Assembly (NCBI RefSeq): GCF_040954835.1
Contig: NC_090697.1
Coordinates: 4,538,501 to 4,602,500, forward strand
Source: Lepisosteus oculatus
Lineage: Eukaryota; Chordata; Actinopteri; Semionotiformes; Lepisosteidae
Length of the DNA: 64,000 bases
Direction: 5' to 3'
Below the pieces are notes generated by a model. That model searched no databases. It saw nothing but the letters and a program-made list of their open reading frames with translations, and was not told the origin of the DNA. Each line of letters begins with the position of its first letter. The stretch's first letter is position 1. Positions 12,641 to 53,590 of the stretch are shown here, piece by piece. Made by a program: the position numbers and the translations under genes.

Positions 12641-13693
12641 TACATAAAAGACATTTTTCCAAGAAAGTTTATAATCATACGATCTATAGTTGAAATCTGA
12701 GCCTAAGACAAAGATAACGATCTTGATCAGTTTAGAAATCTGTGTACGCTGTAAGGTTTTTACTTCTTAAACTTTTAAAATACATGTTTCGAATAGAAAA
12801 AAATCATCTTCCTGGTACAGTATGTATAGCAAACCAGCATGTCTTTTTTCTCCAATCAGAGGGGTTAGACGCTCAGTTAAAAACAAAGGAGATTGTCTGT
12901 TATAGTGGACATAAATACAAGAGTTCGCTGGCATTATATCCTAGAAGACACAGACCGGAACCAGACTGGGAGAATGCCTGCAGCATAAAGGAAATGCCTG
13001 ATGAACTAGGGATTGGACAGTTTCCAAGTGCTTGTACAATCGATGGAAATGTTCAAATAAATATGCAAAAGAAATAAACAAAATAATCATTTATTTCTTT
13101 ATCATATTGGCTAGCTAATGTCCTCTCTTTGCTAGTTAGTGGCTGTGTTTCTGCGTTGGGTAGCAACGGGTCACTGTTCTCAGGTGGAAGATGTAAACAG
13201 CTTAATTTTCGTGTTAAATAATTTTTTTAAATTAAAATTCATTCTATACAGCAATCGCATATTTGGATACCGTTTCATAAAACTTTCATGCTTAAAATGT
13301 TTAGGGAGAAATGGAAGACTGGTGTGTATTTTTTCTTTAAACTATCAAGACCAGCCATACACAGTACAGTTTATGTACATACAGTAATGTTTATGTTCCT
13401 AAATTAATATTGTTTATGACCTTCAGATGCGTTATACTCCTCTTCTTTATATGCTCAGCTACTAAAATTTCCCTTTAGTGGTAAAATTCCATATAAATAT
13501 TCAAAACTAGCGGATTAAAATGTGCACAGCAAAGACATTAAATGATTAAATCTTTTCACTACCAACCAATGCACCACGAGTGCCCCTGTCGGTCATTTTG
13601 GCCAGCCAATCACTTACCGCGGTGCCCTGCGGTGGCTTGTGGGTAGGTTACTGTACCGTGGGTTTGTACCGCGCATTTTGAATGGCTGCATCT
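12640..13693 (-). repeat. R1 repeat arm, reverse orientation
   Basis: The end reads AATGGCTGCATCT at 13681-13693 and is followed by TTA, the expected TA target with one changed base. The interior is the reverse complement of 17872-18565 and 51932-52613 (GACCAGCCATA, GCTAGTTAGTGGCTGTG, CCATCGATTGTAC in reverse) and continues further, matching 45100-45930. Open frames inside are repeat-derived. Confidence 0.75.
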
Positions 13694-14033
13694 TTATTTT
13701 TTCTTTAAAGTACCAAGACCAGCCATATGTTTGTATGTTTATGTTCCAAAATTAATATCGTTTATGGCCTTCACACGCGTTACAGTATGCTCCTATTCTT
13801 TTTATGCTCAGCTACTAAGATTTCCTTTCAGTGGTAAAATTCCACATAAATATTCAAAACTAAAACGGGCACAGTAAAGACATTTTAATCTTTCTACGAC
13901 CGACCAACGCACCACGAATGCCCCTGTCAGTCAACCAATCACGTACTGCGGTATTTTGCATCGTGGCGCGCGAAGCCATAGCCAATTACCTCTGGTACAT
14001 GTCTGTACCGCGCACTTTGAATGGCTGCATCTG
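13694..14033 (-). repeat. R1 repeat arm, reverse, shared by both SD1 copies
   Basis: The end TTTGAATGGCTGCATCTG at 14016-14033 is followed by TA. The counterpart in SD1 copy B ends at 48033. The arm includes the GC-richer subterminal part (CGTACTGCGG, CACGAATGCCCCTGTC). The R1 copy to its left appears to have inserted into this one. Confidence 0.7.
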
Positions 14034-14679
14034 TATACAGATTTTGTACGGTTTTTCATGATTAATCTTCTGTTGGTATTGTGGCAGAAGATGATTAATA
14101 TTGTGGTCAGATTTACTGAGAGGGGGCCTGCACACTGCTCTATAAGTGTCAGTAATGTTTCCAAAGCACTTATCGAGGACACATGTTGAGCCCGTCGGAC
14201 ATGTGATGTACTGTATTGCTGACGGGCAGGAAGGACATTGAAGAAGAAAAATAATAATTTTGTTTTGTCCATCACAATACAAACAAATAGTCAAATAGCA
14301 TAATAAGATAACTGGTGAAACACAAACAAACCGAAAGTGATGATGAACTGTAATCACCATTGCATAAAACAAAGTCGTTTTCAGTCTAGTTCATCCCAGC
14401 ACAAGAGCAGGCCTGCTCTTCTTTATCAACATTGGGTTACCAGTAGTGATGTACTCCACATCAGTACCTGCCATCTCCTGTTGACACTGCAGTGTGAACG
14501 TACAGATGAGTTCAGAATAGCGCTGCTCCTGCTGCTGTGAGGGGGGTGGTTTGTGGATGAAGTCCTGGCTCTCCATTACCTGGCAGTCCTTGTCTGGACA
14601 GGCTGAATGACCCTGATTTCTGTCTTTGTTGAGAGACAGAAACAAAACAAAGACATTAACAACAATATTAATTTAAGGA

Positions 14680-14745
14680 TCTAATATAATATATAGTATA
14701 TAATATATAATATATAATATATAATAACATATATATAATATAGAG
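14680..14745. repeat. AT-rich microsatellite
   Basis: Imperfect TAATATATAATATA repeats. The paralogous tract at 48680-48725 is shorter, so this array has changed in length since the SD1 duplication. Confidence 0.85.
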
Positions 14746-14789
14746 ATGTTTGTATTACCATATTCCACTTTCTTTGTAAACATCTGCAT

Positions 14790-15769
14790 CAATTTCTTTA
14801 ATTCATTCACTTTAAATCCACTTAATATGGAGTTTTACCACTTAAGGGAAGTTTTAGTTAGTTAGTGCTCAGTTAGTGCTAAGCATAAAAATAACAGGAG
14901 CATAAAGCATAAAGTCTCTGAACGTCATAAACAGTATTGATTTAGGAATATAAATATATTATATAAACTGTCTATGGTTGGTAGTGGTAGTTTAAATAAA
15001 AATATACAACAGTATCCCACTTTCTTCATTTTATGCATCAACGCTTTTCACTCTGTCACTTACTGTGGTTATTTTGGAAACATTTTGACATGCTCATTCA
15101 GACTATATTAAGTTTCTATGCTTTGTAAAAAGCTATAATGTTTTAAGGTACAGGTACAGGTATTATAGATAAATTATTATAGAAGTTTTACTTAAGTAAG
15201 TTTTACTTACTGTTTTACTCTCTCCATCTTTAGTATTCACCCATTTGCTCAGTCACAGCCTGTTTTCCATTCAGCAGGGAATAAACCTTTGCCCTTTTCC
15301 TTTGCACTCTATGCAACGAGAACAATGCTAACACTGAACCAAATTGTCACTCAGTTTGAACGACTTGTTTGGGCAAGATTTTCAATTTTCCAATGAATCA
15401 ATCATGACAGAAAAAGTAGTTAAAATAAGCACGTCAAAATGTTTCCAATATAATCACATGACCGAGTTATGTTTATGAAGAAAGTGGAATACCCTTCCAC
15501 AACCAGCTAAATAATATATTTATATTAATAATTTGAAATTGTTCATGACGTTCAGAAATTCATTTTTATTTTCAGCTACTTTCAAAATAAATTTTACAGT
15601 TTTGTTGTAGGAAGCTAAAGTTTACGCTAACATTAAATGCACAAGAAGGGCTACCTATTGATCGTCTTTGGTCAGTGAATCACAATGTTCGCTGTGGTAT
15701 GGTGAAGCAAAGCTCAGCCCCTGTAACACATTAATGAGTTTTAATGCACATTCTGAATGGCTCCATCTG
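14790..15769. repeat. old palindromic R1-type element
   Basis: The left part (about 14800-15130) is a diverged forward R1 arm (TTTTACCACTTAAGGGAAG, AGCATAAAAATAACAGGAGC, GGTAGTGGTAGTTTAAA). The right part (about 15440-15769) is a diverged reverse arm ending GAATGGCTCCATCTG, followed by TA. This gives the inverted-arm layout of a complete but old element. The same structure is in SD1 copy B, ending at 49796. Confidence 0.55.
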
Positions 15770-16150
15770 TATGTGTAAGAAGAGAAGTGCCTTGCCTGGT
15801 CTGTGCACTGGTGGTTTTAAGAGATAAAAAGAGCCTGTGTCAAAAGAAAAATGGTCCTAGCGCTTTTTTATAATTGCTAGGTGGTGTAAAAAAACAAAAG
15901 CAGTTCCTGCATATACTGCAGAGTTCACCTACTGTATCTGTGACAAATTCTATTGAAAAAGTAAAACTTTTAAAGTAAAGGTATTTGGATTGTCTTTTTT
16001 TTTTCTAAACATATCACAACGGTAGCTACTTCTCAGGATAATATTCAAATAAAGAAGAACAGCAGATTAGATCTCTAATGAAATCTCTTGGCTCTTCACC
16101 GCATCTTAATTAACCAAAAGAAATACACTGGTTCCCACAGGCAAGCTCAG

Positions 16151-16190
16151 TAACAGCAGGAGGGGCTACTAGAAATACTTTATAAATTGA
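16151..16190 (+). promoter_or_regulatory. TAAR promoter block
   Basis: ACAGCAGGAGGGGCTACTAG followed by CTTTATAAATT with the TATA box at about 16180, 153 bp upstream of the ATG at 16333. It is identical in layout to the block at 50168 and related to those of the other intact TAARs. Confidence 0.7.
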
Positions 16191-16332
16191 GAAGCAAAGA
16201 AGATACTAGCAAAACTTGAAAGATAAAACGAAAAAAGTAGCATTTTTAAGGAAGAGGAAGTGGAATTCTGATATCCTTTCAGCAAGATCTTTCCAAGATT
16301 TTTTTATTTAAGATTTTCTTTTTTCTCATATA

Positions 16333-17361
16333 ATGGATTTAAATGAAGTAGGTGGATATCAAATAGTGCAGTACTGCTTTGCTTCCGACAATACATCTTG
16401 CACAAAAGAAACTCGATCCACAGCTGTTTACGTAATTTTATATGTTTTCTTTATATCAGTGGTGATGCTGACAGTGTGTGGAAACCTGATGGTGATCATC
16501 TCTATCTCTCACTTCAAGCAGCTCCACACACCAACTAACCTCCTCCTGCTCTCTCTGGCTGTGGCAGACTTTCTAATAGGGCTGATTGTGATGCCTTTTG
16601 CAATGATCAGATATATAGAAACCTGCTGGTATTTTGGGAAGATATTTTGTATGATTTTCTTCTCAGTTCTCTTAATTCTTACAGTTGCTTCTCTTATTAA
16701 TGTTGTTTTCATAAGTATTGATCGATATGTTGCTGTGTGTGACCCACTGCGATATTCTAACAAAATAACAGTTAATGTCATGTGCCAATGTATAATATTT
16801 ATATGGTCATTCTCTGTACTTTACATGTTGATGATTATTATTGGTAATATTAATTTTGTAAACTCTGTAGGTGAAAATGTCTGTCTAGGAGAATGTGCTT
16901 TTGAAATCAGTGCACCCTGGGTGATAGTTGACAATATAGCTACTTTTATTTTGCCTTGCTCTGTTATGATAGCGCTATATATGAAAATATTTATTGTTGC
17001 CAAAAGGCACGCACAATTGATCAAAATGATAACTGAGCAACTGACCTATCAAAATGGAAGCAATGGTAAAGTTTCCAGAAGATCTGAAATTAAAGCAGCC
17101 AGAACATTAGGAATCGTAATGGCTATATTCCTCACATGTTACTTGCCATATTACATTGGCAGTCTAGTTCAAGGAGATTTTAGTTACTCTTCTTCAGTTA
17201 CTAGTTCATTAATATTTGTTGTCAATGTAAGCTCTGCAATTAACCCTATTATTTATGCTTTGTTTTATCCGTGGTTTCAAAAGTCAGTGAAAGAAATATT
17301 CAAATTCAGGATATGTGATGGAGCATCTGATCTAATTAATTTGTTCCCTGAAAATCACTGA
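16333..17361 (+). CDS. trace amine-associated receptor (TAAR), intact, 342 aa
   Basis: A single-exon class A GPCR that is expected to sit in the plasma membrane of olfactory sensory neurons and couple to G protein on binding amines. Visible landmarks: N-glycosylation site DNTS (residue 20), N1.50 in VCGNL (51), D2.50 in AVADF (79), TM3 cysteine C106, DRY at 130-132, W4.50 (158), P5.50 (208), P6.50 in CYLPYY (272), and the TAAR-type TM7 signature NPIIYALFYPWFQKS (304-318). Position 3.32 is Leu113, not the usual amine-binding Asp. Instead Asp200 sits at 5.42 (VIVDNIATFILP). The toggle position 6.48 is Tyr rather than Trp. The start follows the promoter block at 16151, and an AATAAA lies just after the stop. 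The closest relative is the gene at 50352 (about 93% identity by eye). The exact subfamily number needs a tree. Confidence 0.95.
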   Translation: MDLNEVGGYQIVQYCFASDNTSCTKETRSTAVYVILYVFFISVVMLTVCGNLMVIISISHFKQLHTPTNLLLLSLAVADFLIGLIVMPFAMIRYIETCWYFGKIFCMIFFSVLLILTVASLINVVFISIDRYVAVCDPLRYSNKITVNVMCQCIIFIWSFSVLYMLMIIIGNINFVNSVGENVCLGECAFEISAPWVIVDNIATFILPCSVMIALYMKIFIVAKRHAQLIKMITEQLTYQNGSNGKVSRRSEIKAARTLGIVMAIFLTCYLPYYIGSLVQGDFSYSSSVTSSLIFVVNVSSAINPIIYALFYPWFQKSVKEIFKFRICDGASDLINLFPENH

Positions 17362-17871
17362 TTTTTGCATAATAAACATTAGCATGTCTTATGTAAATGT
17401 ATTTGTTTATGTCCGTAATTCAGACATACTAACGAAGGTTAAAATATAAAGGAACTGGAAACAGCATTTTGCAAATGTGCATGTGGTTTTTCATGGAAAC
17501 ATGTTTTCTTCCAATGATATGTTCTTTCATTTTAATTGAATTAAATATATACATTAACTTGATAAATTAATTTTTATTTGGCTTTAGAATGTTAATGGAA
17601 GGCAAATGAATACATAAAATAATTTATTTGCCACATTGTTCACATTTTATTATTGAGTAATATTCTATATATTCTATATATTAATGTTTCTAGTAAATAT
17701 ACTCATCTGACTATATGTATTTAATCAACTTATCATTCATGCCTAACCATGAAGCACATGTGATTTTGACTATTGAAATACTAAATTAAAAAATTTTTAA
17801 AAAATACCTTCATATATAAATATATAAAAAATATTTCCCCACCTATCCACACAGAACAAAGCCATTAACTA
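17362..17871. other. 3' flank of the 16333 gene
   Basis: AT-rich non-coding DNA with an AATAAA at about 17371. The part around 17500-17600 (ATGTTTTCTTCCAATGATATG) also resembles the 3' flank of the pseudogene at 52614, which shows that gene and pseudogene arose by an older tandem duplication. Confidence 0.6.
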
Positions 17872-18565
17872 CAGATGCAGCCATTCAAAATGCACGGTAC
17901 AAACCCGTACTGCGGGCAACTACGCACTAGCCACTGCGCCGTAACACGGTAAGTGATTGGCTGGCCAAAATGACCAACAGGGGCACTCGTGGTGCATTGG
18001 TCAGTAGAGAAAAGATTTAATAATTTAATCTCTTTACTGTGCACATTTTAATCCGCTTAGTATTGAATATTTATATGAAATTTTACCACTAAAGGGAAAT
18101 TTTAGTAGCTGAGCATAAAAAGAAGAGGAGCATAACGCATCTGAAGGTCATAAATGATATCAATTTAGGAACATAAACATATTACTGTATGTAAACTGTA
18201 CTGTATATGGCTGGTCTTGGTAGTTTAAAGAAAAAATACACACCAGTCTTTCATTTCTCCCTAAACATTTTAAGCATTTAAGATTTATGAAATGGTCCGC
18301 AAATATGCGATTGCTGTATAGAATGAATTTTAATTAAAAAAAAATATTTAACAAGAAAATTAAGCTGTTTACGTTTCTCCGTCTGAGAATATAGTCACTC
18401 ATTGCTATGCAACGCAGAATCACAGCCACTAACTAGCAAAGAGAGGACATTAGCTAGCCAATATGATAAAGGAATACATTATTTTTTTGTTTATTTCTTT
18501 TGCACATTTATTTGAACATTTCCATCGATTGTACAAGCACTTGGAAACTGTCCAAACCCTAGTTC
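17872..18565 (+). repeat. R1 repeat arm inserted at the 5' end of a TAAR pseudogene
   Basis: It begins CAGATGCAGCCATTCAAAAT directly after TA (17870-17871) and contains the subterminal CACTCGTGGTGCATTGGTC, the block GAGCATAAAAAGAAGAGGAG and GGCTGGTCTTGGTAG. It ends close to CTAGTTC at 18559-18565, where TAAR sequence (GATAATACATCTTGCC) starts. The promoter and first codons of the receptor are gone. The same junction exists at 52613. Confidence 0.75.
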
Positions 18566-19430
18566 GTTTTCCATCTGATAATACATCTTGCCGAAAAGAA
18601 ACTCGATCTGCAGTTGTTAATGTAATTGTATATGTTTCAGACTTTCTAATAGGGCTGATTGTGATGCCTGTTGAGATGATTAGATATATAGAAACCTGTT
18701 GGTATTTTGGGAGGATATTTTGTATTATTTTCTATTCTGTTCTCTTCATTCTTTCAGTTGCTTCTCTTATTAATGTTGTTTTCATAAGTATTGATCGGTA
18801 TTTTGCTGTGTGTGAAACATTGCAATTTTATAATAAAATAACAGTTAATGTTATGTGCCTATATATAATATTCATTTGGTCATTCTCTGTATTTTATGTG
18901 TTGATGATTGTTACTTTTAATATTAATGTTATAAACTCTGCAGGTGCAAATGCCTGTCTAGGGGAATGTGTTTTTGAAATTAGTGCATCCTATAGTTGAT
19001 ATGTTAGCTACTTTTATTTTGCCTTGCTCTATTATGATAGCTCTCTATATGAAAATATTTATTGTTGCCAAAAGACACGCACATGTGATCAAAACTGTTA
19101 CTGAGCAACTGACATATCGAAATGGAAGCAACACTAAAGTTTCCAAAAGATCTGAAATAAAAGCAGCCAAAACCTTAGGAACTGTAGTGGCTGTATTCCT
19201 TCTGTGTTTCCTGCCCTATTATATTGGCAGTCTAGTTCAAGGAGATCTTAGTGTCTCTTCTTCAGTAACAAACTCATTAATTTTTATTATAAATACAAGC
19301 TCTGCAATGAATCCTATTATTTATGCTTTGTTTTATCCCTGGTTTCAAAAGTCAGTGAAAGAAATATTAAATTTCAGGGTATGTGTTTGAGCATCCAATC
19401 TAATCAATTTGTTCCCTGAAAATCAATGAA
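18566..19430 (+). pseudogene. TAAR pseudogene (SD1 copy A)
   Basis: The sequence aligns with the gene at 16333 from the DNTSC motif onward. The N terminus in the open frame (from 18463) is R1-derived. A 108-bp in-frame deletion removes TM1 and most of TM2: YVS is joined directly to DFLIGLIVMP, with the triplet CAG at both deletion ends in the paralogue. A 5-bp deletion near 18987, just before TM5, shifts the frame; the second frame (to 19390) covers TM5-TM7 with MNPIIYALFYPWFQ. The 5-bp lesion and the R1 junction are shared with 52614-53590, so the ancestor was already dead before SD1 duplicated it. Confidence 0.9.
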
Positions 19431-19560
19431 TTTTGCATGCATACTAAACTAAACATCACTTTGTTTCATGTAAATGTATTTCTTTGTATATAACCATTAT
19501 TCATACACGCTAAATAAAGTAAAAATAACATAGGAGCGGAAAAAGAGTTTTGCAAATGTA

Positions 19561-19878
19561 CAGATGCAGCCATTCAAAGTGCGCGGCACAGACACGTACT
19601 GGAGGTAATTGGCTACAGCCTCGTGCATTGTGACGCGCGATGACTTAAAATACCGCGGTACGTGATTGGTTGACCGACAGGGGCACTCGTGGTGCGTTGG
19701 TTGGTCGTAGAAAGATTTAAATGTCTTTACTGTGCCTGTTTTTGTATTGAATATTTATGTGGAATTTTACCACTGAAGGGAAATCTCAGTAGCTGAGCAT
19801 AAAAAGAATAGGAGCATACTGTAACACGTGTGAAGGCCATAAACGATATTAATTTTGGAACATAAACATACAGTATAT
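19561..19878 (+). repeat. R1 arm with a dated empty site
   Basis: It begins CAGATGCAGCCATTCAAAGT after TA at 19559-19560. The SD1 paralogue at 53711-53721 reads TTGCAAATGTA and continues into ordinary flank without the repeat, so this copy inserted after SD1. The arm stops at 19878 where a minus-strand LINE begins. Confidence 0.8.
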
Positions 19879-21262
19879 GGCCCTTGAGGTGCCCCTGTGT
19901 TACCCTGTGAGACCAAAGTCTCACAGTCTGTGGTCTGCCTGTCTGGTAGTCAGTGATCCACAAGGTCATGGAGGCATCGACTTGCATCTCCTCCAGCTTC
20001 CTCCTTAGAAGTAAGGGCTGGATGGTATTGAAGGCACTGGAGAAGTCGAAAAACATGATCCTTACAGTGTTGCAAGCCCTGTCCAGGTGTGAGTAGGCCC
20101 TTTGCAGCATGTAGATGATCGCATCCTCCACACCAACACTGGGCTGGTAGGCAAACTGTAGGGTGTCCAGTGATGAGCTGACCAGGGGTCTCAGGTGGGA
20201 TAAGACCAGCCTCTCCAGTGTCTTCATGACGTGAGAAGTCAGTGCAACTGGTCTGTAGTCGTTGAGGACAGAGGGGCGCCCTTTCTTTGGTGCCGGGACC
20301 AGGCATGATGTCTTCCAGAGCACCGGGACTTTCTCCAAGCGCAGGCTCAGGTTGAACAGTCGCTGGAGCACTCCGCTCAGCTGATCAGCACAGGCCCTCA
20401 GAACTCTGGGACAGATGTTATCTGGTCCTGTGGCCATACCCTGGTGCAGCCTCTTCAGCTCCTTCTTCACCTGGGCAGCCATGATGGTCAGCCTGGCCTG
20501 GGGGATGGTGCTCATAGTGCTTTCAGTGCTGCAGGTGTTAATGGCGGATGTGTTGGAGAGTGGCAGCTGTGGGGGATGGGTAGGTGAGTAGCTGTCGGGG
20601 GTTGTAGCTATAGGCGGCCATGTTTGTGGGGGGATGGAGGAGGTGTTGGGCAGTCGCAGCTGTGAAGGGTTAGGGAGCGTGTGGCTGTGGGGGGATGGGT
20701 GTTGAGCCACAGAGGACCCAGAATCAAACCTGTTAAAGAACTGGTTCAACTCGTTGGCCATCTCCAGATTCCCCTCTGTTGCACCCCCAGCCTGTTTGAA
20801 GCCAGAGATCTCTCTCATGCAGCTCCATACATCCCTCACCCTATTCCTTTGCAGCTTGTCCTCTACCTTCCTCCTGCAGGCGTCCTTGCTCTCTCTTAAC
20901 TTCTGCTTTAGCTCCCTCTGTACACGCTTGACCTCTTCCTTATCCCCCCTCCTAAAGGCTCTCTTCTTGTCATTCAGAAGAGCCTTCAGGTCGCTGGTGA
21001 TCCAGGGTTTGTTATTGGAAAAGCAGTGTACGTCTTTGGTGGGGATGGTGTTGTCTACGCAGAAGTTAATGTAGTCAGTGACACAGTCCACCATGCTGTC
21101 TATGTCATCCCCATGTGGTTCGCACAGCACATCCCAGTCGGTAGCCTCCAGAGCACCACGTAGATCCTCCATAGCCTCCTGAGACCATCTCCTCACAGTC
21201 CTCATGGTCGCAGGTTGGCGCTGGACAATAGGCGTGTATAGTGGTGATTGATATAAAGAATC
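19879..21262 (-). mobile_element. LINE, CR1/L2/Rex1 group, truncated at both ends
   Basis: On the minus strand a long open frame encodes RTVRRWSQEAMEDLRGALEA, TDWDVLCEPHGDDIDSM, NNKPWITSDLKALLNDKKRA, VRDVWSCMREISGF, then the RT start (GPDNICPRVLRACADQLSG, VPVLWKTSCLVPAPKKG, DYRPVALTSHVMKTLERL, QFAYQPSVGVEDA, MFFDFSSAFNTIQP) and ends at TGRPQTVRL. The FADD box, thumb and 3' UTR are missing, so unlike normal 5'-truncated LINEs this copy lacks its 3' end, pointing to a later deletion or recombination at 19878/19879. The overlap at NTIQPLLLRRKLEEMQVDAS shows the same family as 6814-8139. Confidence 0.9.
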
Positions 21263-21310
21263 CGAATAAAAGATAAGAGCTACATCATCGCACGACTTGT
21301 AGTGTCTCAA

Positions 21311-21868
21311 TAAGTAGATTGTTTTTTTTCCATTTTTTTGGAACTGTTTTAATTTGTTTATTCTTAAATTTGATAAATATATTGATTTTCTATTTCAAAG
21401 ACAAATAATCCAAAGTTCAACATATACAGTAAAAGAAATGAACTCATTTAATCCACTGTGACGTACTGTATAACACATTCCTGTATGAAGAGAAGCTGAT
21501 GATTTGCCAACAGAACATCAAGTAGAAAATTGAAAAATTACTTCACTAACTCAAGGGAGAACCTTTAACAGGCCCATAATGTTGTATCCTTTAATACACC
21601 TGACGATTTGGATAACATTTGCCTTTGGAATTCAGTTGTTTTCTCTCTCTCTCTGACTCCGCACAGGGTCATGCTGTACTTCCATTTATCTGTAGCAGTT
21701 AGAGATGCAGGACAATTTGAATTGCTTAAAGTTCTTTCTTTACTCAACCAGTGAAGTAATTTCACACTTCTCAAGTTAATCCATTGTGTATTTGGGTTGT
21801 TGGCACATCATGCTCTGCCCTTTACACAGGAGGGTGCTGTATGTCAGGGATGGATGAATTGGGTGATG
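21311..21868. other. intergenic, no gene recognised
   Basis: AT-rich, short frames only, with two TACAGTA/TACTGTA words (about 21425 and 21463). I see no family match. Confidence 0.4.
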
Positions 21869-22040
21869 CCGAGTAGCAGTCTGAGGTAGTTAGGCCTCTG
21901 AAACGCCTTGTTTGTAAATACTGTACATAGAGTAACTTGTGTGTTATATGTTTGTTTTGTGTGTAGTCTAGTTTGTGTCTTGTGTCATTGTAATAAATAT
22001 TTGTTTAACCAAGTGTGCCTGAATTATTACTCCTCTCAAC
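21869..22040 (+). repeat. R2 repeat, 3' end copy
   Basis: This is the clearest copy of the R2 end: GTTAGGCCTCTGAAACGCC, AGAGTAACTTGTGTGTTATA, the signal AATAAATATTTGTT and a final block ACTCCTCTCAACA. It matches 9395-9570 (reverse), 29500-29915 (split by a SINE) and, weakly, 57640-57720 (reverse). Confidence 0.55.
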
Positions 22041-23045
22041 AAGTTGGGGTTTATGAATACTTATTTTAATTATTGACTATACCATTCGGTCAACTCCTGA
22101 TTTTCACCAGTTTCGTAACCATATATTTTCTAAAAAATTCGAAAAAACCACGGGAGGGTGTCTAGACCTTATCGGATGATCCAGAACAATAGGCAATAGC
22201 CTATTATCTATTATCTATATAATGAATATAAATAAGTTCAACATAGGGGACACTTTTAACCTTAAATGTGAAACAAGTACAGGAGATCACAATAAACAAA
22301 TTAAGGAAAATTTGTTTAGGATGAAGGAAACACTTTACTCGGGGTAGTGGATAACCTGCGGACACCCCTGGCTGTGTTGCAATAAGCAGCTTCATGACTG
22401 TAACACATACACTGAATTTCTTTAAAACTTTTAAAACCAAAGATTGCAAACCACTTCACATATAAGAAGGTGCACAATTAATCCACTCCTGAAGTACAGA
22501 ACCCTGAAGTGTGATGGGGATATCAAGATGATAGCAGGGGAAGACTTCTCAAGAGTAGCAGCCCCAGGACACAGTAAACCAAGTAAGCAAGTGAGAAATG
22601 ACTTTTCTGGTTGAAGAGAGGAAGAACTTTAAGCAGGCCAGATCATTCTGCAGAAATTCATGCTGTACTGCATGTTGTGACACCATGGGGTTGATGGTGG
22701 AGGATGTGTTCCAAGTGGGTTCACAGGAATTGACATGCCCCTACAGCCTGTTGGGGAACTTTCGGCACTATTTTTCCCCTATTAAACATTATCTGCTCCG
22801 AGCTTAGTGTTTTATATGCTCCTTCATCATGGTACCTAAAACAAGGAACATAATATTTGATTTGCTTTTTCTCATTCCATCAGAGCTATTTTACTTATTA
22901 ACTATCTCTGAGCTCTCGGTTTGCAGATTCTCAGGCTCTGAGTCCCGTACAAATAATATGTCATCCTACATGTCATCATGGATCTCACACCTCTGTCCTT
23001 CACCTGTCTGACCTCCACTGTGTTACTCTTTGAGGATGACATTGC
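22041..23045. other. intergenic, no gene recognised
   Basis: Only short frames and no convincing repeat ends. Nothing in this stretch could be assigned to a family. Confidence 0.4.
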
Positions 23046-23047
23046 CA

Positions 23048-23240: not shown

Positions 23241-23269
23241 TGCTGTCCTTTGTACTGTACTTCGCCATT

Positions 23270-43853: not shown

Positions 43854-44420
43854 CCGTCTTTGTAAAAGTAACACCACAGCATTTCGCAATCACGCATTTG
43901 TTTCCAATCATGCAAAGTACAGTAATTTTTGAGAATCGATTCACCATGCCTTTCACATGCGCATAAAAGAGATTGATTTAGGAACATAAACATATTACCG
44001 TATGCAAACTGTATTGTTTACAGTATGTATATGTATATTTAATGTCTTAACTGTGCCCGTTTAAGTATTGAATATTTATATGGAATTTTACCACTGAAGG
44101 GAAATCTTAGTACCTGAGCATAAAAAGAATGGGAGCATACTGTAACCCGTGTGAAGGCCATAAATGATATTAATTTTGGAACATAAACATACAGTATATG
44201 GCTGGTCTCGGTACTTTAAAGAAAACATACACACCAGTATTCCATTTCTCCCTAAACATTTTAAGCATCGAAGTCTTTAACTAACGTGATACCGGAGTCA
44301 ACAAGCATACTTTTAGAATTTGATTAAAAGGGAATATAATATGGAATCGCGTTTCTAAAGAAATTAATAACGATTTAATTATATTCATGTTGCAAAAAAA
44401 CTGCAATGGACATAAAAACT
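43552..44420 (+). repeat. R1 repeat arm
   Basis: It begins CAGATGCAGCCATTCAAAAT after TA (43550-43551). After the inverted-repeat arm, R1 interior continues at about 43980-44400 (GGAATTTTACCACTGAAGGG, GGCTGGTCTCGGTAC, GATACCGGAGTCAACAAGC). A reverse arm ends at 48033, so 43552-48033 may be one large, internally rearranged element. Confidence 0.55.
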
Positions 44421-44889
44421 CCCTTGCTTTTAACAGAGCATTCCATTATTTCTAACTACGAAATTTATTTAAAATGCGACACTTATCATTCAACAAGAGC
44501 TCGAAATATCACAAGGATCCTCTAGAGCACAGCAAAGACTGTATTAAAAGAATCGCGTATCCAAAGAAATTAATAAGATATAATTATATTCGTGTACTGC
44601 GACAGGGCTGTGTAGGGCTGTTTCACCTCTCACTTCATGTGACTATTCAAAAGCCATTTAGCAAAGAGGGGATGAGAAGAGTGACAAACTAGTATACAGT
44701 ACAGTACTTTAGATCTTTTTTTCTGAACCGGGGAAAATCTGATCATGTTTCTCTATAACAATAATAAAAAACATTGCCACACCCGGACTGTTAAACCAAC
44801 GCATTAGCACGTCAAAGCCCATTGAGGAGCCGGGCGCAATAATTGTTTTGTCCCTTGATTTACTGATCTGCGTTAATTACAGAAATCTA

Positions 44890-45072
44890 GTTCCTGCTCT
44901 TTGCAGACGACCTGGTCCTGCTGTTGCCCACAGAACAGAGGCTGCGGCAGAACCTGGCACTGCTGGAGCAGCTCTGTCAGACCTGGGCGCTGACAATCAA
45001 TCTGGACAAGACCAGAGTTATGGTTTTCCAGAAAAAAAGCCAGACCTCCCTTAGTCTTCCTGATTATGAGTG
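44890..45072 (+). mobile_element. LINE reverse transcriptase fragment of a second family
   Basis: A frame starting at 44897 reads LFADDLVLLLPTEQRLRQNL, ALLEQLCQTWALTINLDKTR, VMVFQKKSQ and stops at the TGA at about 45070. The FADD catalytic box and the NLDKTRVMVF motif identify a LINE RT clearly different from the CR1/L2/Rex1 copies elsewhere in the window. It sits inside R1-like sequence. Confidence 0.8.
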
Positions 45073-45099
45073 AATAAAAGCATCTTATTAAAAACTCTT

Positions 45100-45930
45100 T
45101 GCGTTTGTTTCCAAGAAAGTTTATAATAATATGATCTATAGTTGAAATCTGAGCCTAAATAAAAAGAAAAAGCATTTTCAGAGAGCAATCACGCTCTGTT
45201 TATGTAGAAAAAGTGATTAGGTTTATGAGCAATCTAATTACTTATTCATTTAAAACGCTATATAAAATAAAGTTTATTATTAATTTGCTGGACAGAGCGG
45301 TGAACGTTATTATGGATAAGACAAAGATAACGATCTTGATCAGTTTCGAAATCTGTGTACGCTGTAAGGTTTTTACTTCTTAAACTTTTAAAATACACGT
45401 TTCGAATAGAAAGAAATCATCTTCCTGGTAAAGTATGTATAGCAAACCAGCACGTCTTTTTTCTCCAATCAGAGGGGTTAGACGCTCGGTTAAAAGCAAA
45501 AGAGATTGTCTGTTATAGTGGACATAAAAACAAGAGTTCGCTGGCATTACAGTATATCCTAGAAGACACAGACCGGGAGAATGCCTGCAGCGTAAAAGAA
45601 AATGCCTGATGAACTAGGAATTGGACAGTTTTCAAGTGCTTGTACAATTGATGGAAATGTTCAAATAAATGTGCAAAAGAAATAAACAAAATAATCATTT
45701 ATTTCTTTATCATATTGGCTAGCTAATGTCCTCTCTTTGCTAGTTAGTGGCTGTGTTTCTGCGTTGGGTAGCAACTGGTGACTGTTCTCAGGCGGAAGAT
45801 GTAAACAGCTTAATTTTCGTATTAAATAATTTTTTAAAATTAAAATTCATTCTATACAGCAATCGCATATTTGGGTACCGTTTCATAAAGCTTTCATGCT
45901 TAAAATGTTTAGGGAGAAATGGAAGACTGA
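45100..45930 (-). repeat. R1 interior, reverse orientation
   Basis: Near-identical to 12640-13320 (GATCTATAGTTGAAATCTGA, AATCAGAGGGGTTAGACGCT, GTTAGTGGCTGTGTTTCTGC). At 45550-45554 it has an extra CAGTA relative to 12936, see findings. The open frames at 45355 and 45747 are repeat-derived. Confidence 0.75.
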
Positions 45931-47059
45931 TAATGGAATGTAATGGAATGAATGATAAGTGTCGCAGTTTAAATAATTTTCGTAGTTAGAAATTATGAAA
46001 CATTCTGTTAAAAGCAAGGGAGTTTTTTTGTCCGTTGCAGTAAAAGAAAATGCCTGACAAAGTAGGGCTTGGACAGATTCCAAGTGCATTTTTGCAATTT
46101 ACGTTGCATTGTCCATTGTGATGCTGTAATACAGTTTAAAATAATTCAAAGTCTAAACTGTATCAGCTTTATTTATGGGTTGCATTTTAGAAGAAGTCAA
46201 AAACCGCACTTAAAATGCAATTTAGAGCTTTCTGGCAAAAGGAGACACCCAAATTAATAATGTAACATGCCACTGTTTGTGCATGAACAAAGTTATACTG
46301 CTATTTCCTTATACTGCAGATACGTGCTGAATCCCCGGCGGAACACATTCCATAAGAATCAGCGCTTTTATATATCGCCTTTAAAGGTGGCTTCTCAAAA
46401 CGCTTTACAGGATAAAAACAACAATAACAGCAACAACAACAATATTATATTTCATTGCACTTTGAAAACCAAGTAATAACTTAACTATATGTGCAAACGT
46501 TTTATGATATCTCACTGTTGTGAATGTCTGTGGAGTGTGTCTTATTAGCCTGTCTGACCTGGCTGTGCTCTCGCTCGCCCTCCCCCCCACTCTCCCTCAA
46601 TTCAATTCAATTCAAGGTGCTTTATTAGCATGACAGATGGGTACAATCAGTGTTGGGTATTTACTTTGCTTTGAGATTCCACTTTTAAAGATGATATATA
46701 AAATCAAGGCTTTAACTTGCTTTAACTCCGCAAGTCTGAGTTCTCGTGTCTGTCCTATCCAAACCCGAAAATATTACAATATGTATCTTTATAGCAGGTG
46801 GTGTACAACTTTTTAGCATAGATTACACTTTTATAAAATGTATTAAAAAATAAAAAGGATTACAATCTAATTTTTCCACGTTTGATCCCAAGATCCCAAG
46901 AAAAATAAATCTAAACGGGGAGAAAGTTATGCTGAAAGTTTAATAAGATACTTAGAAGACAAAGATAACAATTTATGTTGCATTTGTCTGATTGTGAATC
47001 AAAAAACACATATATTTAAACACGCGTTTACGATTTAAATCAAAACGCAATTTAAATCA
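45931..47059. other. R1-linked interior and intergenic DNA, no gene
   Basis: A diverged copy of the preceding R1 segment runs at 46010-46090 (AAAATGCCTGACAAAG, GGCTTGGACAGATTCCAAG). SINE/LINE tail pieces lie at 46365-46420 (CAAAACGCTTTACAGGAT) and 46590-46650 (minus strand, TAATAAAGCACCTTGAATTG). No gene recognised. Confidence 0.45.
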
Positions 47060-47340
47060 ATATAAATGTTTATATTGTAACGCATAGGTGACTATTCATT
47101 GTTATTAAAATGACTTAAATTCGATCATGTTGTGATATTTAGAAATATAAATTTGTTTGGTGCGAGTGAGGTTTTATTTAATCTCTGACCAAGGGAAACG
47201 TTTCATTTTTTCAAAGAAATGTTTGTTAAAAAAAGAAGTCATGGCTCCAGTGGGATCGATCACAGACCGTGTGATACAGGAGTCAGGAACCTAACCCACA
47301 GCACCAGGTCACATGCAGAGTGCTGAAAAAGCACTACAGA
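47060..47340 (-). repeat. tRNA-like module, reverse copy
   Basis: On the minus strand: GACCTGGTGCTGTGGGTTAG, GTTCCTGACTCCTGTATCAC, TCTGTGATCGATCCCACTGG, AGCCATGAC, followed by TTTTAACAAACATTTCTTTG and TAAATATCACAACATGATCG. The arm order is that of a tRNA with a good B box (GATCGATCCC). The shared downstream part ties it to 38440-38660. It is a SINE-like or captured tRNA fragment, not a tRNA gene. Confidence 0.5.
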
Positions 47341-47399
47341 AACATTATCAACAGACAATGTACAGCGTGTACTATTCTTGTGTTGCGGTACATGAATAT

Positions 47400-48033
47400 A
47401 ATTATATTGAGATAACAATGCACCGCCCACTGAGTGGAATGTTCTCATTTGTTCTCAAGTGTAAAAAGAGGTGATAATTCTTAAAAATTCCGTGTCGCAT
47501 TAACTAACCTCTTCAGTTTATTCCGTCAGACAGTACATGGATATAATTATATCGTTATTAATTTCTTTAGATACGCGATTCCATATTATATTCCCTTTTA
47601 ATCAAATTCTAAAAGTATGCTTGTTGACTCCGGTATCTCATTAGTTAAAGACTTCGATGCTTAAAATGTTTAGGGGAAATGGAATACTGGTGTGTATTTT
47701 TTTCTTTAAAGTACCAAGACCAGCCATATACTGTATGTTTATGTTCCAAAATTAATATCATTTATGGCCTTCACACGCGTTACAGTATGCTCCTATTCTT
47801 TTTATGCTCAGCTACTAAGATTTCCTTTCAGTGGTAAAATTCCACATAAATATTCAAAACTAAAACGGGCACAGTAAAGACATTTTAATCTTTCTACGAC
47901 CGACCAACGCACCACGAATGCCCCTGTCAGTCAACCAATCACGTACTGCGGTATTTTGCATCGTGGCGCGCGAAGCCATAGCCAATTACCTCCGGTACAT
48001 GTCTGTACCGCGCACTTTGAATGGCTGCATCTG
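47400..48033 (-). repeat. R1 repeat arm, reverse orientation
   Basis: It ends ATGGCTGCATCTG followed by TA (48034-48035) and is the reverse complement of 43060-43200 and 43980-44400 in its left part (AACAATGCACCGCCCACTGA, TTGACTCCGGTATCTC). The right part, from about 47690, belongs to SD1. Confidence 0.75.
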
Positions 48034-49353
48034 TATACAGATTTTGTACAGTTTTTCATGATTAATCTTCTGTTGGTATTGTGGCAGAAGATGATTAATA
48101 TTGTGGTCAGATTTACTGAGAGGAGGCCTGCACACTGCTTTATAAGGGTCAGTAATGTTTCCAAAGCACTTATCGAGGACACATGTTGAGCCCGTCGGAC
48201 ATGTGATGTACTGTAATGCTGACGGGTAGGAAGGACATTGAAGAAGAAAAATAATAATGTTGTTTTGTCCATCACTATACAAACAAATAGTCAAATAGCA
48301 TAATAAGATAACTGGTGAAACACAAACAAACCGAAAGTGATGATGAACTGTAATCACCATTGCATAAAACAAAGTCGTTTTCAGTCTAGTTCATCCCAGC
48401 ACAAGAGCAGGCCTGGTCTTCTTTATCAACATTGGGTTACCAGGAGTGATGTACCCCACATCAGTACCTGCCATCTCCTGTTGACACTGCAGTGTGAACG
48501 TACAGATGAGTTCAGAATAGCGCTGCTCCTGCTGCTGTGAGGGGGGTGGTTTGTGGATGAAGTCCTGGCTCTCCATTACTTGGCAGTCCTTGTCTGGACA
48601 GGCTGAATGACCCTGATTTCTTTCTTTGTTGAGAGACAGAAACAAAACAAAGACATTAACAACAAAATTAATTTAAGGATCTAATATAATATATAATATA
48701 TAATATATAATAACATATAATATAATATAGAGATGTTTGTATTACCATATTCCACTTTCTTTGTAAACATCTGCATCAATTTCTTTAATTCATTCACTTT
48801 AAATCCACTTAATATGGAGTTTTACCACTAAAGGGAAGTTTCAGTTAGTTAGTGCTCAGTTAGTGCTAAGCATAAAAATAACAGGAGCATAAAGCATAAA
48901 CTCTCTGAACGTCATAAACAGTTTTGATTTAGGAATATAAATATATTATATAAACTGTCTATGGTTGGTAGTGGTAGTTTAAATAAAAATATACAACAGT
49001 ATCCAACTTTTTCATTTTATGCATCAACGCTTTTCACTCGGTCACTTACTGTGGTTATTTTAGAAAAGTTTTGACATGCTCATTCAGACTATATTAAGTT
49101 TCTATGCTTTGTAAAAAGCTCTAATGTTTTAAGGTACAGGTACAGGTATTATAGATAAATTATTATAGAAGTTTTACTTAAGTAAGTTTTACTTACTGTT
49201 TTACTCTCTCCATCTTTAGTATTCACCCATTTGCTCAGTCACAGCCTCTTTTCCATTCAGCAGGGAATAAACCTTTTCCCTTTTCCTTTGTAGTCTATGC
49301 AACGAGAACAATGCTAACACTGAACCAAATTGTCACTCAGTTTGACCGACTTG

Positions 49354-49400
49354 TATCCAGCACCACTGAGATGAGGGAGAGAGACTGGCAAGGGAGCAGC
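49354..49400 (+). other. 47-bp patch of R3 sequence inserted in SD1 copy B
   Basis: The insert ATCCAGCACCACTGAGATG, GGGAGAGAGACTGGCAAGGG, AGCAGC is nearly identical to the R3 interior at 818-866 and 25063-25109. Copy A reads straight through (about 15371). It has neither R3 ends nor a visible target duplication. Confidence 0.8.
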
Positions 49401-50167
49401 AAGATTTTCAATTTTCCAATGAAACAATCATGACAGAAAAAGTAGTTAAAATAAGCACGTCAAAATGTTTCCAATATAATCACATGACCGAGTTATGTTT
49501 ATGAAGAAAGTGGAATACCCTTCCACAACCAGCTAAATAAATATATTTATATTAATAATTTGAAATTGTTCATGACGTTCAGAAATTCATTTTTATTTTC
49601 AGCTACTTTCAGAATAAATTTTACAGTTTTGTTGTAGGAAGCTAAAGTTTACGCTAACATTAAATGCACAAGAAGGGCTACCTATTGATCGTCTTTGGTC
49701 AGTGAATCACGATGTTCGCTGTGGGATGGTGAAGCAAAGCTCAGCCCCTGTAACACATTAATGAGATTTAATGCACATTCTGAATGGCTCCATCTGTATG
49801 TAGAAGAAGAGAAGTGCCTTGCCTGGTCTGTGGGTGCACTGGTGGTTTTAAGAGATAAAAACAGCCTGTGTCAAAAGAAAAATGGTCCTAGCACTTTTTT
49901 ATAATTGCTAGGTGGTGTAAAAAAACAAAAGTAGTTCCTGCATATACTGCAGAGTTCACCTACTGTATCTGTGACAAATTCTATTGAAAAAGTAAAACTT
50001 TTAAAGTAAAGGTATTTTCGTCTTTTTTTTTTCTAAACATATCACAACGGTAGCTACTTCTCAGGATAATATCCAAATAAAGAAGAACTGCAGATGAAAT
50101 CTCTTGGCTCTTCACCGCATCTTAATTAACCAAAAGAAATACACTGGTCCCACACGCAAGCTCAGTA

Positions 50168-50204
50168 ACAGCAGGAGGGGCTACTAGAAATACTTTATAA
50201 ATTG
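50168..50204 (+). promoter_or_regulatory. TAAR promoter block
   Basis: Same sequence as the block at 16151 (ACAGCAGGAGGGGCTACTAG, CTTTATAAATT), about 155 bp before the ATG at 50352. Confidence 0.7.
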
Positions 50205-50351
50205 AGAAGCAAAGAAGATACTAGCAAAACTTGAAAGATAAAACTAAAAAAGTAGCATTTTTAAGGAAGAGGAAGTGGAATTCTGATATCCCTTCAGCAA
50301 GATCTTTCCAAGATTTTTTTTTTTATTTAAGATTTTATTTTTTCTCATATA

Positions 50352-51380
50352 ATGGATTTAAATGAAATAGGGGGACATCAAATAGTGCAGTACTGCTTTG
50401 CTTCCGACAATACATCTTGCACAAAAGAAACTCGATCCACAGCTGTTTACATAATTTTATATGTTTTCTTTATATCAGTGGTGATGCTGACAGTGTGTGG
50501 AAACCTGGTGGTGATCATCTCTATCTCTCACTTCAAGCAGCTCCACACACCAACTAACCTCCTCCTGCTCTCTCTGGCTGTGGCAGACTTTCTAATAGGG
50601 CTGATTGTGATGCCTTTGGCAATGATCAGATATATAGAAACCTGCTGGTATTTTGGGAGGATATTTTGTATGATTTTCTATTCTGTTCTCTTAATTCTTA
50701 CAGTTGCTTCTCTTATTAATGTTGTTTTCATAAGTATTGATCGATATGTTGCTGTGTGTGACCCATTGCAATATTATAATAAAATAACAGTTACTGTCAT
50801 GTGCCAATGTATAATATTTATGTGGTCATTCTCTGTACTTTACATGTTGATGATTATTATTGGTAATATTAATTTTGTAAACTCTGTAGGTGAAAATGTC
50901 TGTCTGGGAGAATGTGTTCTTGAAATCAGTGCGCCCTGGGTGATAGTTGACATGATAGCTACTTTGATTTTGCCTTGCTCTGTTATGATAGCTCTCTATA
51001 TGAAAATATTTATTGTTGCCAAAAGGCACGCACAATTGATCAAAATGATAACTGAGCAACTGACCTATCAAAATGGAAGCAATGGTAAAGTTTCCAGAAG
51101 ATCTGAAATTAAAGCAGCCAAAACATTAGGAATCGTAATGGCTATATTCCTCACATGTTACTTGCCATATTACATTGGCAGTCTAGTTCAAGGAGATTTC
51201 AGTGACTCTTCTTCAGTTACTAATTCATTAATATTTATTATCAATGTAAGCTCTGCAATTAACCCTATTATTTATGCTTTGTTTTATCCGTGGTTTCAAA
51301 AGTCAGTGAAAGAAATATTACAATTCAGGATATGTGATGGAGCATCTGATCTAATTAATTTGTTCCCTGAAAATCACTGA
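50352..51380 (+). CDS. TAAR, intact, 342 aa (SD1 copy B)
   Basis: Paralogue of the gene at 16333, with the same length, start context and landmarks: DNTS glycosylation site, N51 (1.50), D79 (2.50), C106, Leu113 at 3.32, DRY 130-132, Asp200 at 5.42 (VIVDMIATLILP), P208, CYLPYY in TM6, NPIIYALFYPWFQKS in TM7. About two dozen residues differ, several of them in TM2-TM5 (MPFAM to MPLAM, FFS to FYS, CAFEIS to CVLEIS, DNIATF to DMIATL), close to the expected ligand pocket. Both copies keep clean frames, so both are probably functional. It is followed by an AATAAA at about 51390. Confidence 0.95.
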   Translation: MDLNEIGGHQIVQYCFASDNTSCTKETRSTAVYIILYVFFISVVMLTVCGNLVVIISISHFKQLHTPTNLLLLSLAVADFLIGLIVMPLAMIRYIETCWYFGRIFCMIFYSVLLILTVASLINVVFISIDRYVAVCDPLQYYNKITVTVMCQCIIFMWSFSVLYMLMIIIGNINFVNSVGENVCLGECVLEISAPWVIVDMIATLILPCSVMIALYMKIFIVAKRHAQLIKMITEQLTYQNGSNGKVSRRSEIKAAKTLGIVMAIFLTCYLPYYIGSLVQGDFSDSSSVTNSLIFIINVSSAINPIIYALFYPWFQKSVKEILQFRICDGASDLINLFPENH

Positions 51381-51931
51381 TTTTTGCATAATAAACATTA
51401 GCATGTCTTATGTAAATGTATTTGTTTATGTCCATTATTCAGACATACTAACGAAGGTTAAAATATATAGGAACTGGAAACAGCATTTTGCAAATGTGCA
51501 TGTAGTTTTCCATGGAAACATGTTTTCTTCCAATGATATGTTCATTTTAATTTAATTAAATATATACATTAACTTGATAAGTTAATTTTTACTTGGCTTT
51601 AGAATGTTAATGGAAGGCAGATAAATACATAAAATAATGTATTTGCCACACTGTTCACATTTTATTATTGAGTAATATTCTATATATTAATGTTTCTAGT
51701 AAAAATACTCATCTGACTATATGTATTTAATCAACTTATCATTCATGCCTAACCATGAAGCACATGTGACTTTGACTTTTGAAATACTAAATCAATGTGG
51801 AATTATTAAATCTCATTAGATCTGATAGGTGACGGTGAAGCCTGTGTAACTTAAGAAAAAAAATACCTTCATATATAAATATATAAAAAAAAATTTCCCC
51901 ACCTATCCACACAGAACAAAGCCATTAACTA

Positions 51932-52613
51932 CAGATACAGCCATTCAAAATGCACAGTACAAACCCGTACTGCGGGCAACTACGCACGAGCCACTGCGCC
52001 TTACCGCGGTATGTGATTGGCTGGCCAAAATGACCGACAGGGGCACTCGTGGTGCATTGGTCGGTAGTGAAAAGATTTAATCATTTAATCTCTTTACTGT
52101 GCACATTTTAATCCGCTTAGTATTGAATATTTATATGAAATTTTACCACTAAAGGGAAATTTTAGTAGCTGAGCATAAAAAGAAGAGGAGCATAACGCAT
52201 CTGAAGGTCATAAACGATATCAATTTAGGAACATAAACATATTACTGTATGTAAACTGTACTGTATATGGCTGGTCTTGGTAGTTTAAAGAAAAAATACA
52301 CACCAGTCTTCCATTTCTCCCTAAACATTTTAAGTTTTATGAAATGGTCCCCAAATATGCGATTGCTGTATAGAATGAGTTTTAATTTAAAAAAAATATT
52401 AAACAAGAAAATTAAGCTGTTTACATTCCTCTGCCTGAGAATATAGTCACTCATTGCTACGCAACGCAGAAACACAGCCACTAACTATCAAAGAGAGGAC
52501 ATTAGCTAGCCAATATGATAAAGGAATACATTTTTTTTTTGTTTATTTCTTTTGCACATTTATTTGAACATTTCCATCGATTGTACAAGCACTTAGAAAC
52601 TTTCCAATCCCTA
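51932..52613 (+). repeat. R1 repeat arm at the 5' end of a TAAR pseudogene
   Basis: It begins CAGATACAGCCATTCAAAAT after TA and is the SD1 counterpart of 17872-18565, with the same junction into TAAR sequence. The insertion therefore predates SD1. Confidence 0.75.
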
Positions 52614-53590
52614 GTTCATTTTCCATCTGATAATACATCTTGCCGAAAAGAAACTCGATCTGCAGTTGTTAATGTAATTGTGTATGTTTCAGTGTTGATA
52701 CTGACAGTGTGTGGAAACCTGATGGTGATCATCTCTATCTCTCACTTCAAGCAGCTTCACACACCAACTAACCTCCTCCTGCTCTCTCTGGCTGTGGCAG
52801 ACTTTCTAATAGGGCTGATTGTGATGCCATTCGTAATGATCAGATATATAGAAACCTGTTGGTATTTTGGGAGGATATTTTGTATGATTTTCTATTCTGT
52901 TCTCTTCATTCTTTCAGTTGCTTCTCTTATTAATGTTGTTTTCATAAGTATTGATCGGTATTTTGCTGTGTGTGACCCATTGCAATATTATAATAAAATA
53001 ACAGTTAATGTTATGTGCCTATACAGTATATAATATTCATTTGGTCATTCTCTGTATTTTATGTGTTGATGATTGTTACTTGTAATATTAATGTTATAAA
53101 CTCTGCAGGTGCAAATGCCTGTCTAGGAGAATGTGTTTTTGAAATTAATGCATCCTATAGTTGATATGTTAGCTACTTTTATTTTGCCTTGCTCTATTAT
53201 GATAGCTCTCTATATGAAAATATTTATTGTTGCCAAAAGACACGCACATGTGATCAAAACTGTTACTGAGCAACTGACATATCGAAATGGAAGCAACACT
53301 AAAGCTTCCAAAAGATCTGAAATAAAAGCAGCCAAAACCTTAGGAACTGTAGTGGCTGTATTCCTTCTGTGTTTCCTGCCCTATTATATTGGCAGTCTAG
53401 TTCAAGGAGATCTTAGTGTCTCTTCTTCAGTAACAAACTCATTAATTTTTGTTATAAATACAAGCTCTGCAGTGAATCCTATTATTGATGTTTTGTTTTA
53501 CCCCTGGTTTCAAAAGTCAGTGAAAGAAATATTAAAATTCAGGATATGTTATTGAGCATCCAATCTAATCAATCCGTTCCCTGAAAATCA
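52614..53590 (+). pseudogene. TAAR pseudogene (SD1 copy B)
   Basis: It retains TM1-TM4 in the first frame (VLILTVCGNLMVII, SLAVADFLIGLIVMP, SIDRYFAVCDPLQYYNK), which is R1-derived before codon 36. A 5-bp CAGTA insertion at 53024-53028 breaks the frame in TM4; the paralogue at 18860 lacks it. The 5-bp deletion before TM5 near 53150 is shared with the pseudogene at 18566. The last frame (to 53555) has NPIIDVLFYPWFQ, with the conserved Tyr7.53 changed to Asp. No promoter block is left. Confidence 0.9.

Follow-up and report, generated by a model that had tools for sequence, protein, structure and literature searches.

Introduction

The closest described counterpart of the sequence words treated here, TACAGTA and TACTGTA, is the excision footprint of the transposon Sleeping Beauty. 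We examined these words in a 64,000-nucleotide stretch of DNA from Lepisosteus oculatus (NCBI RefSeq assembly GCF_040954835.1, contig NC_090697.1, positions 4,538,501 to 4,602,500 of the forward strand; hereafter the window), and in the rest of its genome. In the excerpts of the published reports on which we draw, the same two words were recorded as Sleeping Beauty footprints after induced transposition in three mouse leukaemias, with approximately 100 to 200 candidates per sample (PMC4378557). Sleeping Beauty is cut three nucleotides inside the element, which leaves three-base 3′ overhangs, and end joining gives footprints identical to the overhangs (PMC7827188). Its target consensus around the TA is reported as ATATATAT (PMC3271037).

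Other TA-targeting fish elements that leave short footprints are ZB, a zebrafish Tc1 element (0–3 bp), and Passer, of the pogo group (0–4 bp), the latter with TA duplications and 28-bp ends in three fish. Those footprints come from plasmid assays in cultured cells, and the excerpted text of these reports contains no genome-wide census of scars. In rice, a comparison of O. sativa with O. glaberrima covering all superfamilies found 8 of 94 excisions to be perfect, with perfect meaning that two target copies alone were left, and mariner insertions outnumbered excisions by 2.6–2.8 to 1 (PMC4423477, as excerpted). Excerpts of PMC7913693, PMC9976928 and PMC8151067 were also drawn on. A search of titles and abstract openings, with most subscription journals outside its reach, found no genome-wide census of the TACAGTA/TACTGTA scars.

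We conclude, with a probability of approximately 0.94, that most TACAGTA and TACTGTA words in this genome are footprints of cut-and-paste elements with CAG...CTG ends and a TA duplication. The elements appear to be of the Sleeping Beauty/Tc1 type, possibly together with a CAG-ended family designated R1. The likeness to Sleeping Beauty extends to the same two words, a 5-bp gain at TA, a similar target palindrome, an SB100X-related transposase and CAG-ended elements; unlike the mouse leukaemia set, there are 0.7–0.8 million excess words in one assembled genome. As in rice, sequence comparison yields a record of DNA-transposon excision that includes mariner-type elements, whereas here 88 of the 100 matches listed at one repeat site are canonical CAG or CTG (CWG) scars and the excess words outnumber the recognisable Tc1 copies, a contrast that is indicative only since the measures differ.

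Results

TACAGTA and TACTGTA are in excess in the window and across the genome

The original prediction, made from the window's letters, put the number of these words at roughly 70 against 8 to 12 expected, and the counts are close to it: 34 TACAGTA and 42 TACTGTA (76) against 6.0 and 6.3 (12.3) expected from base composition. Markov expectations for the word and its complement are 10.6, 13.7, 16.5, and 21.1 at orders 1–4, and the order-5 expectation reaches 56.3 because its six-letter parts already hold most of the word. Among the TANNNTA pairs in the window, TACAGTA/TACTGTA is the commonest, followed by TAAAATA (55) and TATAATA (52).

Outside the window, 19 ten-kb stretches (190 kb) from ten contigs were placed by hand at round positions without regard to content. 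They contain 151 of the words, with 33.4, 39.4, and 51.6 expected at Markov orders 2, 3, and 4, at densities from 0 to 19 per stretch. TACAGTA has the highest order-3 z-score among the 7,564 seven-mers with an expectation above 5, and it exceeds the order-2 expectation 4.52-fold, the next TANNNTA word doing so 1.85-fold. Genome-wide (1.2 Gb, 813 contigs) there are 504,236 TACAGTA and 511,431 TACTGTA, 1,015,667 together, against 117,259 and 117,645 (234,904) for the reversed word used as control, an excess of 780,763. An excess over other TANNNTA words, proposed in the original prediction as a genome-wide check, is found in the window and the 190 kb, which that comparison covers and where it is specific to CAG/CTG; across the whole genome the excess is over the reversed word only. 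As far as these counts reach, the words are in excess, and not solely within repeat consensus sequences. The mouse genome is near 2.7 Gb in size. From that size and the more than 300,000 places at which it is reported to carry the two words (PMC4378557, as excerpted), their density in mouse is approximately 0.11 per kb, compared with 0.85 per kb here.

For the window and sample together (254 kb), 227 words against approximately 40 expected leave approximately 187 in excess, or approximately 80%, and the order-4 background from the 190-kb sample lowers this share to about two thirds. We estimate that between two thirds and four fifths of the words are scars, depending on the background model, and therefore that there are 0.7–0.8 million excess words genome-wide, part of them copied within repeats. 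This DNA has 33,496 oriented TA sites and hence 16,748 TAs, of which the 187 excess words would make up approximately 1%. Words with one mismatch to the scar are in modest excess (transitions 349 versus 301, transversions 623 versus 563), which is too rough for dating.

Pairs of words within 12 bp number 9; in 200 random draws of TAs there were 3.2 such pairs on average and never more than 9. Nested scars are suggested by this only tentatively, because some copies of TACAGTATACAGTA have their next bases in common. That sequence occurs 3,362 times genome-wide, its reversed control 42 times. A tandem array with a 7-bp unit containing TACAGAC was also seen in one fetched stretch (L024, from about 3191; listed places 7 bp apart).

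The TA site without the word is found in paralogues and in a dispersed repeat

Two 5-bp differences read by eye in the original prediction, CAGTA at 45550–45554 missing at 12936 and CAGTA at 53024–53028 missing at about 18863, are exact in the alignments of the paralogous stretches. In both pairs, and in the repeat described below, the unscarred allele has a single TA and the gain is exactly 5 bp.

The repeat is dispersed, approximately 480 bp long and of a build that we label SINE-like (short interspersed nuclear element-like), with GCGCTATATAAGTGT at its end; 17 copies or fragments were aligned. A genome search with GCGCTATA followed by any five bases and TAAGTGT found 206 copies carrying a 5-bp insertion, and the reversed control found none. 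Among the 100 matches listed of these 206, the insertion is TACTG in 39, TACAG in 25, CTGTA in 17, and CAGTA in 7, so that 88 are exact CAG or CTG scars at either of two TAs, four forms among the 1,024 that chance would allow. The other 12 of the matches listed differ from a scar by one mismatch (ten) or two (two). By reading, the downstream TA fits the target palindrome described below at 5/6 positions and the upstream TA at 4/6, and the downstream TA bears 64 of the 88 scars among the matches listed. On the strand of the repeat, CTG forms account for 56 and CAG forms for 32 of these 88, a surplus that may reflect a repair or context bias.

Twenty of the 206 scarred copies, from two contigs (C1 and C2), were fetched; all are scarred at the second TA, 11 with CTG and 9 with CAG, and by eye their flanks differ. 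Kinship could be compared for the 13 in which 150 bp or more of the repeat was comparable, the other 7 having none. In 9 of the 13 the nearest relative either is unscarred or carries the other scar form, and for the 6 testable CTG copies it is never another CTG copy. As far as the 13 testable copies show, the scarred copies are not one lineage: the scars arose independently, at many sites, and in both CAG and CTG forms.

The flanks form a palindrome around the TA

The 10 + 10-base flanks are distinct in 221 of the 227 sites of the window and sample. Position by position, the left flank favours A at −3 (0.47), T (0.38) or C (0.23) at −2, and A (0.40) or G (0.24) at −1; the right flank favours T (0.44) or C (0.26) at +1, A (0.38) or G (0.27) at +2, and T at +3 (0.56). 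Together these preferences spell the palindrome AYR-TA-YRT, whose central TA is replaced here by the scar (A-Y-R-[scar]-Y-R-T), close to the Sleeping Beauty target palindrome. With the minisatellite of the window masked, a score of at least 5/6 was reached by 60 of 227 scar words. Among the remaining TANNNTA words the figure was 100 of 1,284 (Fisher p = 6e-14), and among all TAs it was a fraction of 0.06. The palindromic flanks therefore indicate an insertion-site preference that is still visible around a word holding no element.

These flanks bear on another notion, in which each word would mark the end of a miniature element that begins CAGTA and is still in place, and would not be an empty scar. 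Tc1-type elements do begin with TACAG. The sequence on both sides of the words nevertheless varies from site to site, with a symmetrical preference. At the SINE-like site, as in the two paralogue cases, exactly five bases and no element separate the flanks, which refutes the notion for those paired cases. A search of 278 kb for inverted TACAG...CTGTA pairs listed 11, and in several of these, repeats are paired by chance. We regard element ends as scarcely credible, being ruled out by the differing flanks.

Observations against excision, and copying or mutational bias as improbable alternatives

Several observations weigh against an excision origin for particular words or for the strength of the case. 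Among the matches listed for another site of the SINE-like repeat, GACACTATACTGTAAACAGG, TACTGTA is present in approximately 89 of 100 and none is empty; the 6,246 genomic matches to this pattern carry an inherited word and are to be discounted. The word there may go back to a scar in the founder of the repeat that then multiplied. Copies of the R1 repeats have TACAGTATGCTCC and contexts like it in common, and some of eight fetched TACAGTATACAGTA loci (L001–L008) agree in their following bases. In the kinship comparison, 4 of the 13 testable copies, all CAG, have a fellow CAG copy as their nearest relative; 7 of the 20 lie outside the comparison. Mildly palindromic flanks also occur in a few other TANNNTA words, the best among words with at least 15 sites being TACTATA (0.194 of 31), itself one transition away from the scar word. 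A third paralogue case, in which CTGTA at 59513–59517 had been compared with 8479, did not hold as a clean 5-bp difference, since the alignment breaks down there.

Evidence on both sides comes from a survey of indels in alignments of at least 75% identity and at least 80 bp, with at least 11/15 flanking bases matching on each side and the minisatellite excluded. Of its 29 five-bp indel loci, 8 have the form TA to TA-CWG-TA and only 1 another TANNNTA form, which favours excision. On the other side, 20 are not of the TA form, and 1-bp (97) and 4-bp (45) indels outnumber the 5-bp ones, with 2-bp (30) and 11-bp (25) loci making up the other common lengths. Several of the 8 CWG loci lie at homologous repeat sites and one (L005) was fetched by motif, and they therefore represent fewer than eight independent events. 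At one of the homologous sites, the counterpart of the R1 site at 44138, L013:9006 carries a one-base derivative of the scar. The minisatellite-like array at 38700–42700, with units ACCACTG...CACACAGC, dominates the repeated words of the window; it produces spurious 5-bp indels between units and was masked in several counts.

Two explanations that dispense with repeated excision draw on these data. If the words had multiplied as parts of repeat consensus sequences, as in the SINE-like and R1 repeats, shared contexts such as those above would follow; six 6 + 6-base contexts do recur, the commonest five times, as part of the SINE-like repeat, and another four times. The 221 distinct flank combinations among 227 speak against such an origin for the whole, and the 6,246 matches are less than 1% of 1,015,667, though the pattern misses diverged copies. 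At the second SINE-like site, moreover, the insertion is absent from the aligned copies and elsewhere occupies two positions in both forms. Copying is real at one SINE-like site and in some R1 copies, apparently too small a contribution for the total, and as a general explanation we consider it very improbable. Ordinary mutational bias or slippage, with no transposon, could draw on the commonness of small indels and on the other forms taken by most 5-bp loci. It is hard to reconcile with the four footprint forms among the listed repeat insertions, with a 4.5-fold excess over order 2 where no other TANNNTA word exceeds 1.85-fold, or with the presence of a target palindrome, and we give it almost no credence.

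Candidate source elements

Excision scars of this form call for CAG-ended, TA-bounded elements, and these are present in the genome. A 1,627-bp element at L020:1685–3311 is bounded by TACAGTGCCTTGCGAAAG... with TACAG...CTGTA ends, and its arms are 223-bp inverted repeats, 98% alike. Terminal inverted repeats of the Sleeping Beauty group are about 200–250 bp long. The element contains a 301-residue open frame, its start being a candidate only, in which the Pfam domains HTH_Tnp_Tc3_2 and DDE_3 were found; a read-through translation with stops written as X gave none. The frame matches the Sleeping Beauty transposase SB100X with E = 4e-86 and has DD34E spacing, with 34 residues from the second D to the E as counted by eye. 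By its domains, spacing and arm length, the predicted protein and its element fit the Sleeping Beauty group (Tc1, DD34E). The Tc1 element of the window, at 60742–62983, is a relative of the L020 element and is interrupted by an insert at 61658–62252; the insert has closely matching inverted arms and is nested in the Tc1 transposase gene. Including the window, copies or remnants of Tc1 transposase (found in 4 of the 19 sample stretches) give 5 recognisable copies in 254 kb.

A second possible source is the R1 family. Its ends, 11 in 278 kb with 10 of them in the window, consist of an approximately 28-bp terminal repeat, CAGATGCAGCCATTCAAAATGCGCGG and variants, with TA before all 11 and differing sequence beyond. 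They look like a TA-targeting element family whose members share only their ends, and they could be a further source of scars; at least three pairs are mutual copies by local duplication. In 28-bp ends and TA boundary they resemble the Passer elements of the pogo group, R1 being known by its ends alone. The expectation in the original prediction that both the Tc1 copy and the R1 ends begin with CAG is borne out, each starting with CAG directly after TA.

The scars might accordingly be thought to derive mainly from R1, with its 28-bp ends CAGATGCAGCCATTC... and perhaps a pogo-group affinity, and not from Tc1/Sleeping Beauty elements. All 11 ends have the appropriate start, and Passer offers a precedent for short footprints in fish. 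Only 1 of the 11 ends lies in the 190-kb sample, so R1 looks locally enriched, the palindrome found is that reported for Sleeping Beauty, and Tc1 transposase is spread over several sample stretches. A predominantly R1 origin is the less likely of the two, and we lean towards Sleeping Beauty/Tc1-type elements as the probable chief source.

Setting of the words in the window

Seven-transmembrane receptor genes (7tm_1), some intact and some broken, are clustered in the window, which also contains reverse-transcriptase frames and the Tc1 element (Table 1). The words are scarcer in the five intact receptor frames, which contain 2 of the 76 (at 28251 and 36150) and 442 of the 4,653 TAs of the window (one-sided p = 0.02). 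One paralogue-confirmed scar, at 53022, lies in a receptor pseudogene: the open reading frame at 52506–53033 stops shortly beyond it, and from 53009 onwards a frame shifted by 2 is open. There is another break after this scar, and its unscarred paralogue, with 178 residues, is likewise truncated, so that the scar need not be the first lesion of the pseudogene.

Table 1. Coordinates of scar words, unscarred alleles and repeats (window positions unless a locus is named)
Feature	Position	Strand	Evidence or remark
Full set of 76 TACAGTA/TACTGTA words	952..63957	.	window count
Excision scar TACAGTA	45548..45554	.	exact 5-bp difference, closely matching paralogous stretch
Unscarred TA allele of 45548 scar	12935..12936	.	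paralogue alignment
Excision scar TACAGTA, seven-transmembrane receptor pseudogene, shifts frame	53022..53028	.	paralogue alignment; 7tm_1
Unscarred TA allele of 53022 scar, paralogous gene copy	18862..18863	.	paralogue alignment
TACAGTA versus TA in homologous L013 stretch	38418..38424	.	weak: 75% identity alignment
TACTGTA versus TA in other R1 repeat copies	44138..44144	.	indel alignments; homologous scarred site 19817
TACTGTA, claimed third paralogue case, unconfirmed	59511..59517	.	alignment to 8400–8560 not clean
SINE-like repeat copy	3284..3760	+	alignment; others near 25202–25423, 37617–37756, 56314–56435
Tc1 element, ends TACAGTGGTG..., flanked by TA on either side; terminal inverted repeats of approximately 215 bp, 96% alike	60742..62983	+	
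Stretch bounded by 28-bp inverted repeat TACAGATGCAGCCATTCAAAATGCGCGG (R1 ends), TA at boundaries	43550..48035	.	
R1 ends	14033, 15769, 17872, 19561, 38034, 43552, 48033, 49796, 51932, 57628; L013:6666		

Discussion

The excess of the words, their CAG/CTG specificity, the paralogue pairs, the insertions in the SINE-like repeat, the palindrome and the CAG-ended element agree with the original prediction of a genome littered with excision footprints, and the published Sleeping Beauty footprints are the very words that it named. We infer the family behind each scar and also the cutting and joining steps, the latter from the published Sleeping Beauty work. Insertion would duplicate the TA; the transposase would later cut three bases inside each end and leave 3′ CAG overhangs on both flanks; the overhangs would pair with one central A:A mismatch and be joined by end joining; and the mismatch would resolve to A or to T. 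Given the overhang chemistry of Sleeping Beauty, elements with CAG ends would therefore leave TA-CAG-TA or TA-CTG-TA, 5 bases longer than the original site.

If so, the 0.7–0.8 million excess words, minus those copied with repeats, would count past excisions in the germline. Approximately 187 excess words and 5 Tc1 copies in 254 kb give approximately 37 per recognisable Tc1 copy, a ratio resting on a small number of copies and on a census that misses short, old or other elements. A seven-base scar should fade faster than a kilobase element, and decay alone would lower the ratio. The elements would therefore have moved many times for each one remaining, and the simplest reading is that each did so with little net gain in copies. 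We lean towards regarding the words as a countable record of transposition, of 0.7–0.8 million intact scars at approximately 1% of TAs and approximately 37 per Tc1 copy, left by elements that persisted by moving rather than by multiplying and whose history is mostly invisible to annotation. The kind of footprint is already known; the interest lies in its number, its canonical form in 88 of the 100 repeat matches listed, and the ratio of scars to elements.

Annotation of repeats tallies surviving elements and misses the jumps that were made. If most TACWGTA words are scars, a single assembly would yield the number of events, their target preference, their age by decay, the outcome of repair and the damage to genes. 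Each scar is a 5-bp frameshift, as in the receptor pseudogene of the window that contains one. That so many scars are canonical is relevant to how such breaks are joined in the germline, and the ratio of scars to elements to a long-standing question, whether moving brings cut-and-paste elements a gain in copies. If the record is indeed countable, scars could be used to date and map the history of transposition.

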